NCBI GenBank assembly: GCA_017302015.1
Contig: JAFLEE010000033.1
Span: 1 to 47,349, forward strand
Source: Spirochaetota bacterium
Lineage (GTDB): Bacteria; Spirochaetota; UBA12135; COTS27; JAFLEE01
Length of the DNA: 47,349 nt
Reading direction: 5' to 3'
The notes below the pieces were generated by a model. That model was not told the origin of the DNA, ran no database searches, and worked only from the letters and a program-made list of their open reading frames with translations. The translations under genes were made by a program, and so were the position numbers. This document shows, piece after piece, positions 1 through 31,251 of the stretch. Within the stretch, counting starts at the first letter, position 1, and each line of letters opens with the position of its first letter.

Positions 1-125
1 AACAACAATTCCCTGATGGTATTTCTCGAAACGGCATGATAACCTTTTTCTGCGCGATTAAATATACGCTTAGCCTCCTCTAGTCCTTGTGGTGTTTTGG
101 ATAAGGCTTCATAAATTGGCTCTAG
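1..125 (-). pseudogene. Fragment: C-terminal end of an M1 / leukotriene-A4-hydrolase-like aminopeptidase
   Basis: Read on the minus strand from 125 down to the window edge, one frame stays open for about 41 codons. It gives a peptide starting LEPIYEALSKTPQGLEEAK and continuing through RIFNRAEKGYHAVSRNTIREL. This matches the C-terminal helical domain of bacterial leukotriene-A4-hydrolase-like M1 aminopeptidases, whose ends typically read as PLY..L..TPEG...A..IF..A..GYHP....... The stretch is about 40% G+C, far below the rest of the window, and the frame ends where the GC-rich beta-helix sequence begins at about 121-126. I infer a fragment from another genome (assembly chimera), or less likely a recent insertion. 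Family recognition is from memory and not from a search. Confidence 0.55.
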
Positions 126-487
126 ACCAACCCGTCATCTACATGAGCGTCTACCTCAAGACCGACCCCTCGTCGGAAAAGACCCCCTTCCCCATCCTCA
201 ACACCATCCTCATCGAGCGGAACCTCTTCGTCGACAACCCCGGGGCGATCGCCTACGCCTGCTCGGCCGGCAACGTGGTCATCCGCGACAACGTGGTGAG
301 GAACCCGACCCCGCGCGCGGTGAACTTTCCGTACCGTGGCAGCATCGGGACGGCTTATGCCACCGGCGTCGACGTGGTCAACAACGTGTTTTGGGCCTCG
401 CCGTCTATGCCCCGCCCTGGCTTGTTCGACGATGTGGAGACCACGACCGGCGTCCATTTCGAGGGGAACGCGCTCAAGAAGCCCTGA
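125..487 (+). CDS. C-terminal end of a right-handed beta-helix (pectate-lyase-like) protein, 5' truncated
   Basis: About 120 codons remain, from GAC at 125 to the TGA at 485-487. The peptide has short repeated strands with alternating hydrophobic and small polar residues (for example ILNTILIERNLFVDNPG, GNVVIRDNVVRNP, GVDVVNNVFWA). These are typical rungs of a parallel beta-helix of the NosD/pectate-lyase type. Upstream of about 121 the same frame runs into AT-rich sequence that codes for something else on the other strand, so the N-terminus with any signal peptide and catalytic part is missing. The full beta-helix genes at 38305 and 39993 show that this fold is used elsewhere in the window. 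Substrate unknown. Confidence 0.6.
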   Translation, partial: DQPVIYMSVYLKTDPSSEKTPFPILNTILIERNLFVDNPGAIAYACSAGNVVIRDNVVRNPTPRAVNFPYRGSIGTAYATGVDVVNNVFWASPSMPRPGLFDDVETTTGVHFEGNALKKP

Positions 488-573
488 CCCCCGGCGGGGG
501 ACCCCACGGGGGGGCGGGTGATGCGAAAATCAGGGGGTCGAACCCCGACGCTCCGAACTCCCCCGAGGTCCTC

Positions 574-1443
574 GTGAAGAATTCCTTCCCCGTCATCGCC
601 TTCGCCACCGTCGTCCTCGTTTTCCTCGCCTTTTTGGCGCTCCTCTACGTGCCCCCGCTGAAGTCCTATTGGGCCAAGGAAGCGGGGGACCTCCTCGCCG
701 AAGCGGCGGACCCCGTCGGCAGCACCAACGCCCTCATCACCGAGGCCGAGGTCGACCGCCTTCCCGAGCCCATGCGCCGCTACCTCAAATTCGCCGGGGT
801 CGTCGGCAAACCGCACCTCAACCGCGTGCACCTAAAAATGCGCGGCCAATTCAAGATGGGCACCAACGCCGACTGGATGCGCGTCACCGTCGACCAGGTG
901 AGCACCCTGCAGCCCCCGGGGCGCTCCTTCTATATCCACGGGAAGCCGTGGCCCTTCGCGGCCATCTCCGGCATCGACTCCTACCGCGCCGGCGAGGGCC
1001 GCATGCGCATCCGGCTCTTCTCGCGCATCCCCCTCCTCGACGTGAAGGGGGACGAGATCACCGAATCGGCCCTGGTGACGATGCTCAACGATATGGTGCT
1101 GTTCCCCCAGGCCTTCCTCTCGACGAATATCCGCTATCAGGCCCTCGACGCCCAATCCGTCGAGGCCACCCTGGCCGTCGGCGCGCGCCGCGTCAGCGCC
1201 GTCCTCGGGATCAACGCCAAGGGGGAACTCACCAATTTCACCTCGACCAACCGTTGGCGCCTCGAGGGCAAGACCTCCGTGCGCGAGACCTGGAGCACGC
1301 CGTTCTCCCGCTACACCAATCTCGGCGGCATCCAGGTCCCCGGCCGCGGCGAGGCCATCCACTTCTACGAAGACGGGCCCTTCCCCTACGCGCGGTTCGC
1401 GGTTCCCGAACTCATCCGCTTGAACCCGACGAACCTCGAATAG
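574..1443 (+). CDS. DUF6544/DUF6920-type membrane-anchored protein
   Basis: The 289-residue protein starts with a short cytoplasmic tail and one strong membrane helix (about residues 4-26). A soluble domain follows that begins with the family signature LPEPMRRYLKFAGVVGKP and goes on with GQFKMG, WMRVTVDQ, the W-P-F pair and a C-terminal FYEDGPFPYARF strand. This pattern is that of the DUF6544/DUF6920 proteins, whose function is unknown. I chose the GTG at 574 because GAGG lies about 6 nt before it and the hydrophobic helix follows at once; the longer open frame from 391 overlaps the beta-helix gene and has no family sequence. A strong terminator follows at 1552-1578, so it is likely the last gene of its unit. 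Confidence 0.7.
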   Translation: MKNSFPVIAFATVVLVFLAFLALLYVPPLKSYWAKEAGDLLAEAADPVGSTNALITEAEVDRLPEPMRRYLKFAGVVGKPHLNRVHLKMRGQFKMGTNADWMRVTVDQVSTLQPPGRSFYIHGKPWPFAAISGIDSYRAGEGRMRIRLFSRIPLLDVKGDEITESALVTMLNDMVLFPQAFLSTNIRYQALDAQSVEATLAVGARRVSAVLGINAKGELTNFTSTNRWRLEGKTSVRETWSTPFSRYTNLGGIQVPGRGEAIHFYEDGPFPYARFAVPELIRLNPTNLE

Positions 1444-25135: not shown

Positions 25136-27769
25136 CTATTCCCCCTGCCTCGGGAGGTACGGCGTGATGTCGGTCTTCCTGCTATTGAGGGCCCCCGCGC
25201 GGAATCGCAGCACCGCCACGGCATGGGGAAGCGCCGCGTTTTCCGAGGCCGCGACCTGGTCTTCCCCGAAGACGTCGCCCAGGATATGGGTGAGGAAGGC
25301 GCGCTCGGCCACGGGGCCGCCCTCCACGGAGGGGGAAAGGGCGATGCCGTCGAGGCGGGGATGGTTCCGCCATCGGGCGAGGAAGAGGCGGAATTGGCTG
25401 GCGACCTGGTCGTTGGTGCGGTCGAAACGGATCCAGATCTCGTCGCGCAGGGAGACCGGGGGCTCGCGGTCGGCGAACGACTCGGCGGCCCCGCGCACGG
25501 TGCTGATCATCTGGAGGAAGAAATCCACCCCGGGCTGGGTGGCGCGCACCTCGGCCATGCGCCGCAGCCACGCGTTGAGGATGGGCGCTCGCAGGCGCTC
25601 GAAGGTGGGGCGATTGCCCGGGTAGAGTTTGCTCTGGCCGACGTTGAAACGCGCGTTCTGCACCTTGGTATCGCTGAAGAGGCGGAGATCATCCCCGGCG
25701 GCGGCGGAAGCGAGGTGGGCCTCGACCAAGCGCTCCTTCATGGCGTAGATGCGGGCGTAGAAAGAATGCAGTTCGGGATGGGTGAGCAGGCGCCGCAGGG
25801 CCGTGGCCACCCCCGCGGGGGTATGGGGAAGGTCTTCCAGGCCTAGGATCTCGACTTCTTCCCCCGCCTGGAGGCTCTTGAGGCGGTTCACCAATTCGCA
25901 CACGACCTCGAGGTCGCGCCAGCCGGCCTTAGCCAGCAGGTCGGTGTCGTCGAGGATCGCGTTGAGGAAGCAGAGGTACTCGGCCGATTCGCGGTGCGGG
26001 TGCACCCAATGGGCCGCGCCCGAGCGCCGACGGGCCTCCTCCTTGGCGATCAGACGCCGCGCCAAACTCAAGGACGCCTCGCCTTCCGGCCCGGGAGGAA
26101 GGGCCTGCCGCCGCTGGCGGGCGAGGGATTCGCTGGACTGGCCCCGCAGGGAATAGCGGTCGTGGCGGGCGAAGGAGAACTCCGCCAGGAGGGTGTTGGA
26201 GGATTGGACGTCGCTCACCGAGATGGCGGCCGCGCTGCGCGTGCGGATCTCGCTCTTATGGTGGTCGATGACCGAGATCACCTCGAGATGGCCGGCCAGG
26301 GAGATCTCGTGCCCGTTGGCGAAATCCCGCAGGCTCACCGTGCCCTGGATCGGCTTCTCCAATTCCTCCGCGTGGATCGTGCCCACGGGCAGGAGTTTGC
26401 CCGACCGGGTGGGGAAGACGACGGTGATGTGCTCGTAATTGTGGATCTTGTCGCGGATCTCGTCGATGGTGGCCCGGGTCGTGACGTAATTGGGGGAAAA
26501 GCCCAGCACCTCGTGCTTGACCTGCATCACGACGTCCATGCGCAGGGTATGGGCGCCCACTTGCCGCACGGCCCGGGAGAGCGCCCCGTGCACGGCCTCG
26601 AAGGCGCGGAAGACGGGGGCCACGCCCGCCTTCAGGAGGCCCGCCCCGTCCCACAGGTCGTCTTCCAAGAGCCGATCCAGGGCCGCGAAGTACGAGGCGA
26701 AATCGCTGCCCGTGCGCTCGTCGAAGCACCGCAAGACCTGCTTCAGCGGCGTCGCCCCGCCCCCCTCCAGCCCGTAGATCTTCGAGAGGAGGGCGTCGAG
26801 TTCCCGGGGATCGTCGGGCAGGTGCCCCACCGAGAGATCATGGGGCCATTGGAACGGCCGCTCGGACAAGGAGGCCACGGCGGCCGCCACCTCGGCCCGG
26901 GTGAGGGAATCCTTGCCGAAAGAGAGGCTCAGTTCCGCGGTGACGAGGCGCAGGTACTCCCGCAGGGCCCCGGTGAGGGTTCGACGCACCCGGCCCACGG
27001 TATCGATGTCGCCCAGGCGCCAGTCGCCCACGTAGAAGCCGCCCTCGTCCACCATCACGATGGCGTTCTGGTAGCGGTTGTGCCGGTAGGTGGTGAGGTC
27101 GCGCTCGCCCCGGGCGAGGATGAAGCGGTCGCGGGTGAGGATATCGTGCCCCACGTGGGCGATGTGGCGGCGGTCCTTGGCGAGGCGGGTGAAGACATGG
27201 GGGGTGAAGAGTTCGTCGAAGAGGAAGGCGGTCTCGTCTCCCGGGCGCCCGCCGGGCAGGTTCCAGATATGCAGCGCGCTCCCCACCCGGGCCGCGAAGG
27301 CATCGAGCCAGGTGATGAAACTCGCCGTCGTGGTGTCGATGTCGGGCGGGTTATGGGCGGTGACGGTATGGCTTCCGGGATGGATCTTGCCCCCGCCGAT
27401 GGGGAAGACCTGCTGGTAGGCTTCGCGGGGCAGGTACTCGCCGACGAGTTTCCCGCGCACGAGCCGGTTCTCCTCGAAGGAGAGGCCCGAGTCGTGGCCG
27501 AGCCAGGATTCGAACCCGGTCTGGTTGAGGCGCGAATCGAGGATCTTCTCTTCGGTGATGCGCGCGAGGTACTTCAGGAAGGGGACGAGGAGGAAGCAGG
27601 GGGACGGGGTGGCCTGGATGAGGCCCAAGAGTTCGCGGTTGACGATCTCGAACCGCTCCTGCGGGGGGAGCGCGCGGAACGACGCCTCCCGGAACCGCTC
27701 GAGGAGGGCCCCGGTCCCGGGGAAATCGTCCATTGGAAGCGCGAGGGCGCCGATGCTCTGGTTCGCCAT
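25136..27769 (-). CDS. Very large DHH / family II pyrophosphatase-like phosphoesterase
   Basis: The 877-residue protein carries the metal motifs of the DHH superfamily in the right order. AHNPPDIDTTTASF gives H139-x3-D143-x-D145, the exact spacing of family II pyrophosphatases. VISVIDHHKSE holds the D-H-H triplet (502-504). FLNAILDDTDLL (601-612) matches the ILSDT motif that carries the last metal ligand. About 350 residues separate the first motif from DHH, where a normal pyrophosphatase has about 85; the whole protein is nearly three times the usual length. The insert and the C-terminal 250 residues match nothing I recognise. No signal or membrane segment is seen. It likely cleaves a phosphoanhydride or a nucleotide signal with Mn2+. 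It follows the kinase-regulator-CheB operon by 109 bp on the same strand and may belong to it. Confidence 0.6.
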   Translation of the reverse strand: MANQSIGALALPMDDFPGTGALLERFREASFRALPPQERFEIVNRELLGLIQATPSPCFLLVPFLKYLARITEEKILDSRLNQTGFESWLGHDSGLSFEENRLVRGKLVGEYLPREAYQQVFPIGGGKIHPGSHTVTAHNPPDIDTTTASFITWLDAFAARVGSALHIWNLPGGRPGDETAFLFDELFTPHVFTRLAKDRRHIAHVGHDILTRDRFILARGERDLTTYRHNRYQNAIVMVDEGGFYVGDWRLGDIDTVGRVRRTLTGALREYLRLVTAELSLSFGKDSLTRAEVAAAVASLSERPFQWPHDLSVGHLPDDPRELDALLSKIYGLEGGGATPLKQVLRCFDERTGSDFASYFAALDRLLEDDLWDGAGLLKAGVAPVFRAFEAVHGALSRAVRQVGAHTLRMDVVMQVKHEVLGFSPNYVTTRATIDEIRDKIHNYEHITVVFPTRSGKLLPVGTIHAEELEKPIQGTVSLRDFANGHEISLAGHLEVISVIDHHKSEIRTRSAAAISVSDVQSSNTLLAEFSFARHDRYSLRGQSSESLARQRRQALPPGPEGEASLSLARRLIAKEEARRRSGAAHWVHPHRESAEYLCFLNAILDDTDLLAKAGWRDLEVVCELVNRLKSLQAGEEVEILGLEDLPHTPAGVATALRRLLTHPELHSFYARIYAMKERLVEAHLASAAAGDDLRLFSDTKVQNARFNVGQSKLYPGNRPTFERLRAPILNAWLRRMAEVRATQPGVDFFLQMISTVRGAAESFADREPPVSLRDEIWIRFDRTNDQVASQFRLFLARWRNHPRLDGIALSPSVEGGPVAERAFLTHILGDVFGEDQVAASENAALPHAVAVLRFRAGALNSRKTDITPYLPRQGE

Positions 27770-27878: not shown

Positions 27879-28436
27879 TCAGCCCGCCCAAGCGATCATG
27901 GCGGCCCGGATCTGCGCCGGGGCGAGGCTGCGCTCCACGCAGCCCGACTCCACCGCCACGCGGGGCATGCCGTAGACGGCGCAGCTGCCCTCTTCTTGGG
28001 CCAGGGTCACGGCCCCGAGGCGCCTCAGGTGGGCCAGGCCCGCCGCCCCGTCATGGCCCATGCCGGAGAGGATGATCCCCATGAGACGGCTCCCCGGGGC
28101 GGGCTCCTGGACGGAGAGGAAGGTGACGTCGGCGGCGGGGCAGACATAATTCACCCGTTCGCCGCGGACGAGGCGCATGCGCCGGTTGCCCACGAGTTCC
28201 AGGTGCACGTCGCTCGGCGCGATGAAGGCCGCCCCGCTTTGGAGCGCTTTCCCGTCCTCCGCGAGGGCCACCCGCATCGCCGTGAGGGAGCCGAGGCGCT
28301 CGCGCACCGAATCGTTGATGAGGACGGGCATGTGCTGGACGATGACCACGCAGGCGTCGAGCGCGGGGAGATCCCGGAAGATCCCGTCGAGGGCCACGAG
28401 GCCGCCGCAGGAGGAGGCGATGAGGATGAGGTTCAT
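27879..28436 (-). CDS. Stand-alone CheB-type methylesterase domain protein
   Basis: The 185-residue protein is a bare CheB catalytic domain without the usual receiver. The triad is intact: Ser9 in IASSCGG, His35 in VIVQHMP and Asp129 in GMGHDGAAG, and the linking motifs FIAPSDVHLEL and YGMPRVAVESG are typical. In chemotaxis CheB removes methyl esters (or deamidates Gln) on receptor glutamates. No receptor or CheR methyltransferase gene is in the window, so the target is unknown. Its ATG overlaps the stop of the response-regulator gene (ATGA), so a two-protein equivalent of full-length CheB is plausible, with the separate regulator acting as its receiver. Confidence 0.85.
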   Translation of the reverse strand: MNLILIASSCGGLVALDGIFRDLPALDACVVIVQHMPVLINDSVRERLGSLTAMRVALAEDGKALQSGAAFIAPSDVHLELVGNRRMRLVRGERVNYVCPAADVTFLSVQEPAPGSRLMGIILSGMGHDGAAGLAHLRRLGAVTLAQEEGSCAVYGMPRVAVESGCVERSLAPAQIRAAMIAWAG

Positions 28437-28828
28437 GGCCGCACGGCCCCCGGCGCGGGGGGGAGGAAGTCGAGCCACTGGCTGACCGCGCGCACCAGGG
28501 CATCGCCGTCGAAGGGCTTGGTGAAATAATCCAGCACGGCCTCCTGGAGGCCCTCCATCTTGGCGTCGGGGGTCTCGCGGGCCGTGAGCATGAGCACGTG
28601 GCAGCCCGCGAGCAGGCCCCGCTCGGCGAGCAGGCGTATCGTGTCCCAGCCGTCGAGGCCGGGCATCATGATATCCATGAGCACGATGCCGCGGTAGCCG
28701 CCGGCGACGAGGCCCAGGCATTCCTCCCCATTGGAGGCCTCAAGCACCTCCCAGCCCTCCGACTCGAAGAGCACCCGCACCGTGTAGCGGATGGACGGTT
28801 CGTCGTCCACGATGAGAAGGCGTTTCAT
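28433..28828 (-). CDS. Single-domain response regulator
   Basis: The 131-residue protein is one receiver domain. The acidic pair D8-D9 (LLIVDDEPSIRYTV), the phosphorylated D52 (IVLMDIMMPGLDGWD), T82 (LMLTARE) and K104 (YFTKPFDG) are all present. There is no output domain, so it must work through a partner, most likely the CheB-type esterase that overlaps it downstream, or as a phosphate relay. It overlaps the kinase gene upstream by ATGA as well, so all three are translationally coupled. Kinase, receiver and esterase should form one pathway. Confidence 0.93.
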   Translation of the reverse strand: MKRLLIVDDEPSIRYTVRVLFESEGWEVLEASNGEECLGLVAGGYRGIVLMDIMMPGLDGWDTIRLLAERGLLAGCHVLMLTARETPDAKMEGLQEAVLDYFTKPFDGDALVRAVSQWLDFLPPAPGAVRP

Positions 28829-31251
28829 GCGGTCCTCCCTGGATCGGCCCTTTGGAGGGCGAAATGCACGGCCGAGCCCTTTCCCGGGCCCGCGCTCTCG
28901 GCCCAGATGCGGCCCCCGTGCTTCTCGACGATGCGCCGGCAGATCGAGAGGCCCAGGCCGCTGGAGCCCAGGTCATGGCGGGAGGGGTCGGCCTTGTAGA
29001 ACTCGTCGAAGATCCGGGCGAGCTGGCCTTCCGTCATGCCCACGCCCGAATCGCTGACCGTGAAGCGCACCGTGCCCCCCTCGGGCCGGGCCTCGAGGCG
29101 GACCTGGCCGCCCGACGGGGTGAACTTCGCCGCGTTGCGCACCAGGTTCTCGACGAGCTCCTCGAAGCGCAGGGGGTCCATGCGCACCGGGATCCCCGCG
29201 GGGACGAGGTTCTCCACACGCACGCCGCCCTTCTCGAAGATGATCGTGTTGCGCCGCAGCACCTTCTCGACCGCGGGGCCCGGCTCGGCGTCCACCAATT
29301 TGAGGACCGCCGACGGCGCGTTGAGCCGCGCCAGGGAGAGCGTGCGCAGCACGAGATCCTGGATGAACGAGACATTCTCGATGACCACCTCGAGCATGCG
29401 CCTCGGCGCCGGCTCGCGGGTCTGTTCGAGGATCTTCGGCAGGAGCGCCACCAGGGGCGTGAGGGGATTCTTGAGGTCGTGGCCGAGGAGGTTGATGAAC
29501 TCGTCCTTCTGCTTGAGGAGCTTCTCCATCTCGCGGTAGGTCTTGCGCTCCGATTCCTCCGCCAGGCGCCGCGACAGGTGGATCGAGGCCAGGTTCCCGA
29601 GCTCGGCGAGGATCCGCGGCGCCTCGTCGAAGAGGTCGGCCCGGGGGAGGTCCTCGGCGCGCACCTCGAAGATGAACCAACCGACGAAGCATTCCCGGAC
29701 CCGGAACGGCTGGAGGGCCACCAGGGCGAGGCCCGCCCAATGCTCGACGATGGGCCAATCCCCCGCGCGGCCGCGCACCGCCTCGGGGGTCAGCACCTGG
29801 AAGACGGGGCGCGAGAGCCATTCGGGGATCGGCACCGAGACCACCCGCCCCAACCCCGGCTCGAGCCCGGGAAGGCGCCACTCGACGGCGCAGCGCAGCG
29901 GGCTGGCGGGGTCGTCTTCCCTCAGGAAACGATGGAAGGCGGCGCGCGAGGCGCCCAAGGCGGGGCCGATATGGGAGAGGAGGGCGAGCAGCAGGGAGTC
30001 TTCCCCCAGGTCCTGCTCCATGGCTTTCCGCCAGATCTCGGCGCGCAGGCCGTTGACGCGGTTCTGGCGCTCGAGGATCTGCTCGGCCTGGAGTTTTTCC
30101 CGGAAGACTTCGTCGATGTCGTCCTTGATGATGGCGACGGCCTCGTAGAGCGGCCGGAAGAGGTGGGTCTCGCTATAGGCGCCCCGCTCCTCCACCTCGC
30201 CGTCGCGGTCCCAGTGGATCGAGCCGAGCACGCCCAGGAATTCCTGGATGCCCTCTTCGACGTGCGCCTGGGCCACCGCGCCGCGGCGCGCCGGATCCCG
30301 CGACTGGGAGCGAAGGGGGAGCGGCCCCTTGGCGCGGTCCTTTTGGATGAGCGCATCGGCGTCCTCGGGGCCCTCCACCTGATAGACCCCGATCGGGGAA
30401 AAACGCCGACTGACGTTGATCATCATGCGCATGGTGCGGTTGAGGCCGAAGACCGCGGCGAAACGGCAGGGGAACTCGTCGTGGAGCGCCTTGAGGCGCT
30501 CGATATAATGCACGCGCGCCTGCCATTGGACGGCGCGGACCCCCTCCCAATCGGCGATGGCGTACCATAGCCCGCGCGGGCGCGCCATGGACGAGAGCGC
30601 CGCGCGGTAGGCGGCGAAGATCGCGTCCAGGTGGGACTCCTTCAATTTGCCGCGGGCGCTCTGGTGGAGGACCTCGTCATCCCGCACGCGGAAATCCAGT
30701 TGGAAATCGTCGAACGCGACGCGCAGTTCCTCCGGCGGGACCGGGGGGGCGATCGGGAGCGCCGCCGTGGCGCCCTTGGTCGCGCGTTCCTGGGTCCACC
30801 TTACGGCTGCGGGGTAGTCCCGAGCGATCTCCACCGGGAAGCGGGGGCGGCTGATGCGCACGCCGATCTTGATGGTGATGCGTAAGACCTCGCTCACGCC
30901 GAAGAAGACCACCCCCTTCATCCGCGGATCCGAACGGCGCCATTCCAAGTACGCTTTCCGCGCTTCCCGGGTCGCCCCGTTCAAGGCCGAGAAATCTTCG
31001 ATGGCGAAATGGGCGCCGTCCGGGGGAAAGACCTCGGCGACGAGGCGGTCGTAGGCCGCGATATAGGGCACCATATTGTCGATGCGCGACACGCCTTCCG
31101 AGCGGATGAGGAGGGTGTCCTGCCCGATCACCGAAAGGGAGACCCGGTAATGGTCGGTCCCGAAGTCGAGTCCGCACCATTCGGGCCGGGTGCGGATGGG
31201 GAGCCCGGTGGCCGGGCAGGTGGAGAGGGTCTCGACGGGGGAGGGTGTCAT
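28825..31251 (-). CDS. Soluble histidine kinase with a duplicated N-terminal domain and a GAF-like domain
   Basis: The 808-residue protein lacks membrane helices. Residues about 25-155 and 175-305 are two copies of one domain. Matching parts are HFAIEDFSALNGATREARKAYL with LWYAIADWEGVRAVQWQARVHY, and FFGVSEVLRITIKIGVRISRP with VFGLNRTMRMMINVSRRFSPI. I cannot name this domain; it is reminiscent of STAS/SpoIIAA-like modules. A GAF-like part follows (about 410-560), then a short coiled coil, the dimerisation box with His591 (INLLGHDLKNPLTP) and an ATPase domain with the N box (LVENLVRNAAKF), G1 (DSGVGM) and G2 (GSSGLGLSI). It should phosphorylate the overlapping single-domain regulator. A TATAAT lies 12 nt before the ATG. 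Confidence 0.88.
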   Translation of the reverse strand: MTPSPVETLSTCPATGLPIRTRPEWCGLDFGTDHYRVSLSVIGQDTLLIRSEGVSRIDNMVPYIAAYDRLVAEVFPPDGAHFAIEDFSALNGATREARKAYLEWRRSDPRMKGVVFFGVSEVLRITIKIGVRISRPRFPVEIARDYPAAVRWTQERATKGATAALPIAPPVPPEELRVAFDDFQLDFRVRDDEVLHQSARGKLKESHLDAIFAAYRAALSSMARPRGLWYAIADWEGVRAVQWQARVHYIERLKALHDEFPCRFAAVFGLNRTMRMMINVSRRFSPIGVYQVEGPEDADALIQKDRAKGPLPLRSQSRDPARRGAVAQAHVEEGIQEFLGVLGSIHWDRDGEVEERGAYSETHLFRPLYEAVAIIKDDIDEVFREKLQAEQILERQNRVNGLRAEIWRKAMEQDLGEDSLLLALLSHIGPALGASRAAFHRFLREDDPASPLRCAVEWRLPGLEPGLGRVVSVPIPEWLSRPVFQVLTPEAVRGRAGDWPIVEHWAGLALVALQPFRVRECFVGWFIFEVRAEDLPRADLFDEAPRILAELGNLASIHLSRRLAEESERKTYREMEKLLKQKDEFINLLGHDLKNPLTPLVALLPKILEQTREPAPRRMLEVVIENVSFIQDLVLRTLSLARLNAPSAVLKLVDAEPGPAVEKVLRRNTIIFEKGGVRVENLVPAGIPVRMDPLRFEELVENLVRNAAKFTPSGGQVRLEARPEGGTVRFTVSDSGVGMTEGQLARIFDEFYKADPSRHDLGSSGLGLSICRRIVEKHGGRIWAESAGPGKGSAVHFALQRADPGRTA

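Follow-up and report, generated by a model that had tools for sequence, protein, structure and literature searches.

The window analysed here is a stretch of 47,349 nucleotides from a Spirochaetota bacterium (contig JAFLEE010000033.1 of assembly GCA_017302015.1, genome G000; 5.4 Mb, 93% complete). On its minus strand lie a histidine kinase of 808 residues (positions 28825..31251), a single-domain receiver of 131 residues (28433..28828) and a CheB methylesterase of 185 residues (27879..28436), in that order. Both junctions within this trio are ATGA overlaps of four nucleotides, between kinase and receiver at 28825..28828 and between receiver and CheB at 28433..28436. An initial annotation, made from the DNA letters, had described three genes joined in this way, a soluble kinase, a receiver with all its phosphorylation residues and an intact CheB catalytic triad; all of these descriptions hold, the solubility of the kinase as a probable feature.

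CheB normally carries a fused receiver that is phosphorylated by CheA, and receptor adaptation is thus closed on itself. The window CheB matches Pfam CheB_methylest (PF01339) over the whole protein (5e-50; 170 bits against a cut-off of 24), and alignment places its Ser-His-Asp triad at S9, H35 and D129. With canonical CheB, a glutamate methylesterase/glutaminase (PDB IDs: 1a2o; 1chd; 6ymz), it shares the triad and the whole-length catalytic domain, for which 6ymz and 1chd are the matching structures. However, it begins at the first catalytic strand and therefore has neither the N-terminal receiver nor the linker that are fused in the canonical protein; instead, the adjoining genes encode a kinase that is not CheA and, as a protein of its own, a receiver of another type.

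A CheB without a receiver is in itself already known and has arisen repeatedly: by parsimony, the receiver-less or receiver-fused state changes eight times on our sampled CheB tree. In Myxococcus xanthus, CheBa (MXAN_0714), also of 185 residues, is an orphan receiver-less CheB, and FrzG consists of a CheB domain with a degenerate receiver, having lost a working one (PMC3945109, Table 3 for CheBa; PMC4546325). CheBa has the same catalytic domain without a working receiver; it is listed as belonging to no che operon, and the passages of these two papers that describe it give no receiver partner, unlike the situation in the window. FrzG likewise lacks a working receiver, but sits in the full Frz operon. 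Stand-alone CheB proteins are also listed for archaea (PMC5847659, Table 2). Within the phylum of the window, receiver-less CheB occurs in three CheR-CheD-CheB rows (L068, 5174-7216; L069, 2-1107; L070, 7944-9984), where CheR and CheD were identified by reading the sequence. Though receiver-less like the archaeal proteins and that of the window, these three CheB take another position in the CheB tree, and no dedicated kinase and receiver were seen with them. The genome of the window also has a second, apparently receiver-less CheB frame (L016, contig C67, about 88-717, plus strand), with a stop about 65 nucleotides ahead of the catalytic domain and no ordinary start codon between; as it is close to the contig end, a frameshift or truncation is possible.

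The receiver matches Response_reg (Pfam, 7e-24) and has its phosphorylation residues at D8/D9, D52 (the phospho-acceptor), T82 and K104. With PDB 3cg4 as its closest structure (1e-34), it is classed by sequence as a CheY/PhoB-like single domain and not as a detached CheB receiver. This bears on whether the assembly, or a frameshift, has simply split an ordinary receiver-fused CheB into two frames. Such a break is seen in a Zixiibacteriota MAG (L119, 1399-2475), where a canonical CheB is broken, probably by a frameshift, into an ORF for a CheB-type receiver beside a CheB ORF. The window receiver, however, is not of the CheB type, a linker is lacking, and six loci have preserved the arrangement as two ORFs; we therefore rejected a frameshifted canonical CheB as refuted in substance, its likelihood being close to nil.

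The kinase has a HATPase_c domain (residues 692-801; Pfam, 4e-27) and, with its H-box present, a HisKA domain (residues 581-645) that falls just under the Pfam cut-off (2e-5; 24.8 bits against 26.9). The gene adjoining receiver and CheB is thus for a kinase of the HisKA/HATPase_c type, not a CheA, and together with a receiver carrying the DD/D/T/K residues it makes up a two-component pair. Its highest hydrophobicity mean over 19 residues is 1.54, and the lack of a strongly hydrophobic stretch suggests a protein that is probably soluble. By repeat alignment, its N-terminus consists of two divergent repeats, at about residues 10-165 and 176-320, followed by a middle region; in Pfam the repeats give a weak DUF7793/SpoIIAA-like (STAS-type) match. 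The same repeats are found in another kinase of this genome and, across the phylum, in kinases from five further genomes; none of these kinases adjoins a CheB. The trio was therefore rejected as a family native to the phylum of the window, and the sensor part and transmitter of the kinase seem to have different histories: the patterns of scores suggest a trio transmitter joined to the sensor repeats of large local hybrid kinases. The repeated domain itself (window 30292-31224; L073, L074, L075, L077, L078, L079 and L080) is present in one to three N-terminal copies in soluble, often very large hybrid kinases of the phylum, often begins with CPxxGxP and is weakly covered by Pfam.

We scanned genome contigs with a pattern derived from the window CheB, which gave one outstanding match, in a Verrucomicrobia MAG (L082; 53% identity, 5e-55), the runner-up reaching 41% identity and 2e-38. 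A search of the phylum and order of that genome yielded five loci, spread over four genomes that all belong to a single Verrucomicrobiota order (G296 twice, G713, G714 and G814), with E-values of at most 7e-68 compared to 5e-50 for the next match. In the phylum of the window, 295 further genomes were sampled, and in none of them does the close CheB subfamily or the receiver subfamily stand out; the class to which the window belongs consists of four genomes only. All five related CheB are receiver-less and each has the same type of receiver directly before it. The order kinase-receiver-CheB is common to the window, G296:C356, G714:C323, G713:C34 and G814:C89, while G296:C506 has the receiver-CheB pair alone with no kinase upstream. 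The four related kinase cores score 148-208 bits against the window kinase, compared to at most 90 for any other kinase collected. The pattern scan is of limited reach, missing G296:C506 though it returned the other copy in that genome, and the trio is therefore probably commoner than the loci found.

In quick trees of sampled collections, with SH-aLRT alone as support, the six receiver-less CheB form one clade (99), as do the six receivers encoded with them (99) and the kinase cores of the window and the four Verrucomicrobiota trios, five in all (97). The CheB triad and the phosphorylation residues of the receiver are invariant at all six loci, and the H-box HDL(K/R)xPLTPLVxLLP in all five trio kinases. 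The receiver-CheB junction is an ATGA overlap in four cases (the window, G296:C356, G713 and G714); at the other two loci, gaps of a few and of about 36 nucleotides separate the genes. What the sequences show is the gene content, the intact residues, the coupling and the inheritance of the three genes as one unit across two phyla. Given that the pair recurs five times outside the window, with the kinase core upstream in four cases, and that four of the six junctions are ATGA, the proposal of the initial annotation that receiver and esterase form a split CheB is supported in that the two travel together, and a functional pair is likely.

Not all of the evidence on the receiver points the same way. 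PDB 3cg4 groups within or beside the six-locus receiver clade, so the receiver appears to be of a wider type that may have other partners elsewhere; this weakens the notion of a CheB-specific receiver and counts against the split-CheB reading. It is in keeping with a receiver-less CheB that is constitutively active, in which case the receiver would be a phosphate sink or serve another output, co-transcription would set dosage only, and expression level would tune basal demethylation. The isolated CheB catalytic domain is indeed active in known systems, and receiver-less CheB is found elsewhere with no adjacent receiver. This account fits poorly, however, with a receiver that adjoins CheB at every one of the six loci, including G296:C506 with its lack of an upstream kinase, and that mostly overlaps it by four nucleotides. 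We consider a constitutive CheB rather improbable.

The relatives also decide the extent of the module. Downstream of CheB, also on the minus strand, is a gene for an orphan protein of 877 residues (25136..27769) in which the motifs HNPPDID and DHH are visible, and which the initial annotation had put forward as a fourth component. Its matches are weak, both to the Mn-pyrophosphatase model PRK05427 (NCBIfam, 5e-4) and to Pfam DHH, where 14.9 bits (E-value 0.033) lie below the cut-off of 28.1 bits; a structure predicted for it without an alignment (pLDDT 37.5) was not used as evidence. The common strand, the distance of 109 nucleotides and a similar GC and GC3 would be compatible with membership. 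But the gene does not overlap CheB, it is absent from all five related loci, and no relative was found in 296 genomes of the phylum, in the pattern scan of genome contigs or among plasmids. When the four-gene order was looked for in other genomes, three genes proved conserved and the fourth was never found; a four-gene module is thus highly unlikely, and we place the DHH-like gene outside it.

The absence of chemotaxis genes noted initially is true of the window, which encodes no CheR, CheW, CheA or MCP and where unrelated genes surround the trio, but not of the genome. When the genome was checked for CheR and MCPs, as had been suggested, both were found: it encodes three CheB and three CheR, MCP domains are matched 22 times (in about 20 proteins), and another contig (C87) carries a chemotaxis cluster of MCP, CheW, CheR and receiver-fused CheB, so that a chemotaxis-free genome was rejected. 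In two of the five relatives the trio closes a chemosensory operon. At G296:C356 the genes ahead of it encode a receiver-SpoIIE phosphatase, an anti-sigma-like kinase, STAS, CheA, MCP, CheW, receiver-fused CheB, CheR and a hybrid kinase of 2056 residues; those at G714:C323 encode MCPs, CheW, receiver-fused CheB, CheR and a hybrid kinase with a terminal Hpt. The Verrucomicrobiota trio kinases open with a receiver of their own, which suggests a relay from hybrid kinase to trio kinase. No chemotaxis genes were seen in the sequence examined at G814, G296:C506 and G713, where the contig extends just 0.8 kb upstream of the locus. The earlier proposal of a pathway without chemotaxis is therefore not borne out; orthologues lying mainly in complete chemotaxis operons had been named as evidence against a split CheB pathway, and two in five neither refutes nor clears it.

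These neighbourhoods also bear on the substrate. The CheR and MCPs of the window genome are possible partners of its CheB, and with two relatives in chemosensory operons there is no need for the unknown target invoked initially, though three relatives and the window, with no chemotaxis genes nearby, make a receptor substrate appear less certain. A split CheB could instead act as esterase or amidase on something other than a chemoreceptor, in a non-chemosensory pathway, as the unrelated genes around the window trio and the lack of chemotaxis genes in the sequence examined at four of the six loci would allow. Against this stand the chemosensory genes at the other two, the CheR encoded in both the window and G296 genomes and the standard active site of CheB, and we think such a substrate unlikely.

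The explanation we prefer, to which we give about an even chance, is that the trio forms a two-component input, not involving CheA, into a split CheB with an auxiliary role in demethylating or deamidating chemoreceptors. The soluble kinase would sense a cytoplasmic cue through its STAS-type N-terminal repeats, autophosphorylate, and pass the phosphate to the lone receiver. The receiver, produced alongside CheB by translational coupling, would bind it and govern its access to substrate, the role that the fused receiver has in ordinary CheB. Chemoreceptor glutamates or glutamines being the most likely substrates, the trio would then reset receptor methylation or amidation upon a signal other than that of CheA, beside the normal receiver-fused CheB.

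In the open-access literature, itself part of the whole literature, we found no description of the trio and nothing direct on CheB being split or receiving input independently of CheA. Kinase core, receiver residues and adjacency are those of an ordinary two-component pair with a 3cg4-type, CheY-like receiver; in the trio, that pair is coupled to a CheB gene. A kinase other than CheA, a separate receiver and a receiver-less CheB, conserved together in two phyla both with and without chemosensory neighbours, looks new, and suggests a route, wired separately, by which chemoreceptors are reset. More tentatively, and as a possibility we hold to be doubtful, the trio may be an interphylum cassette that links cytoplasmic signals independent of CheA to receptor demethylation or deamidation with the receiver acting in trans or, further out, a CheB with a new target that is not a receptor. 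If an unrelated soluble kinase does drive the separate receiver beside the receiver-less CheB, receptor adaptation would have an open input, and the trio would be a natural test of receiver control over CheB in trans. A possible further kinase-CheB pairing is seen in a different CheB clade, in two Defluviitaleaceae MAGs (L084, 3720-6405; L130, 5055-7920), where a receiver-less CheB is immediately followed by a hybrid kinase.
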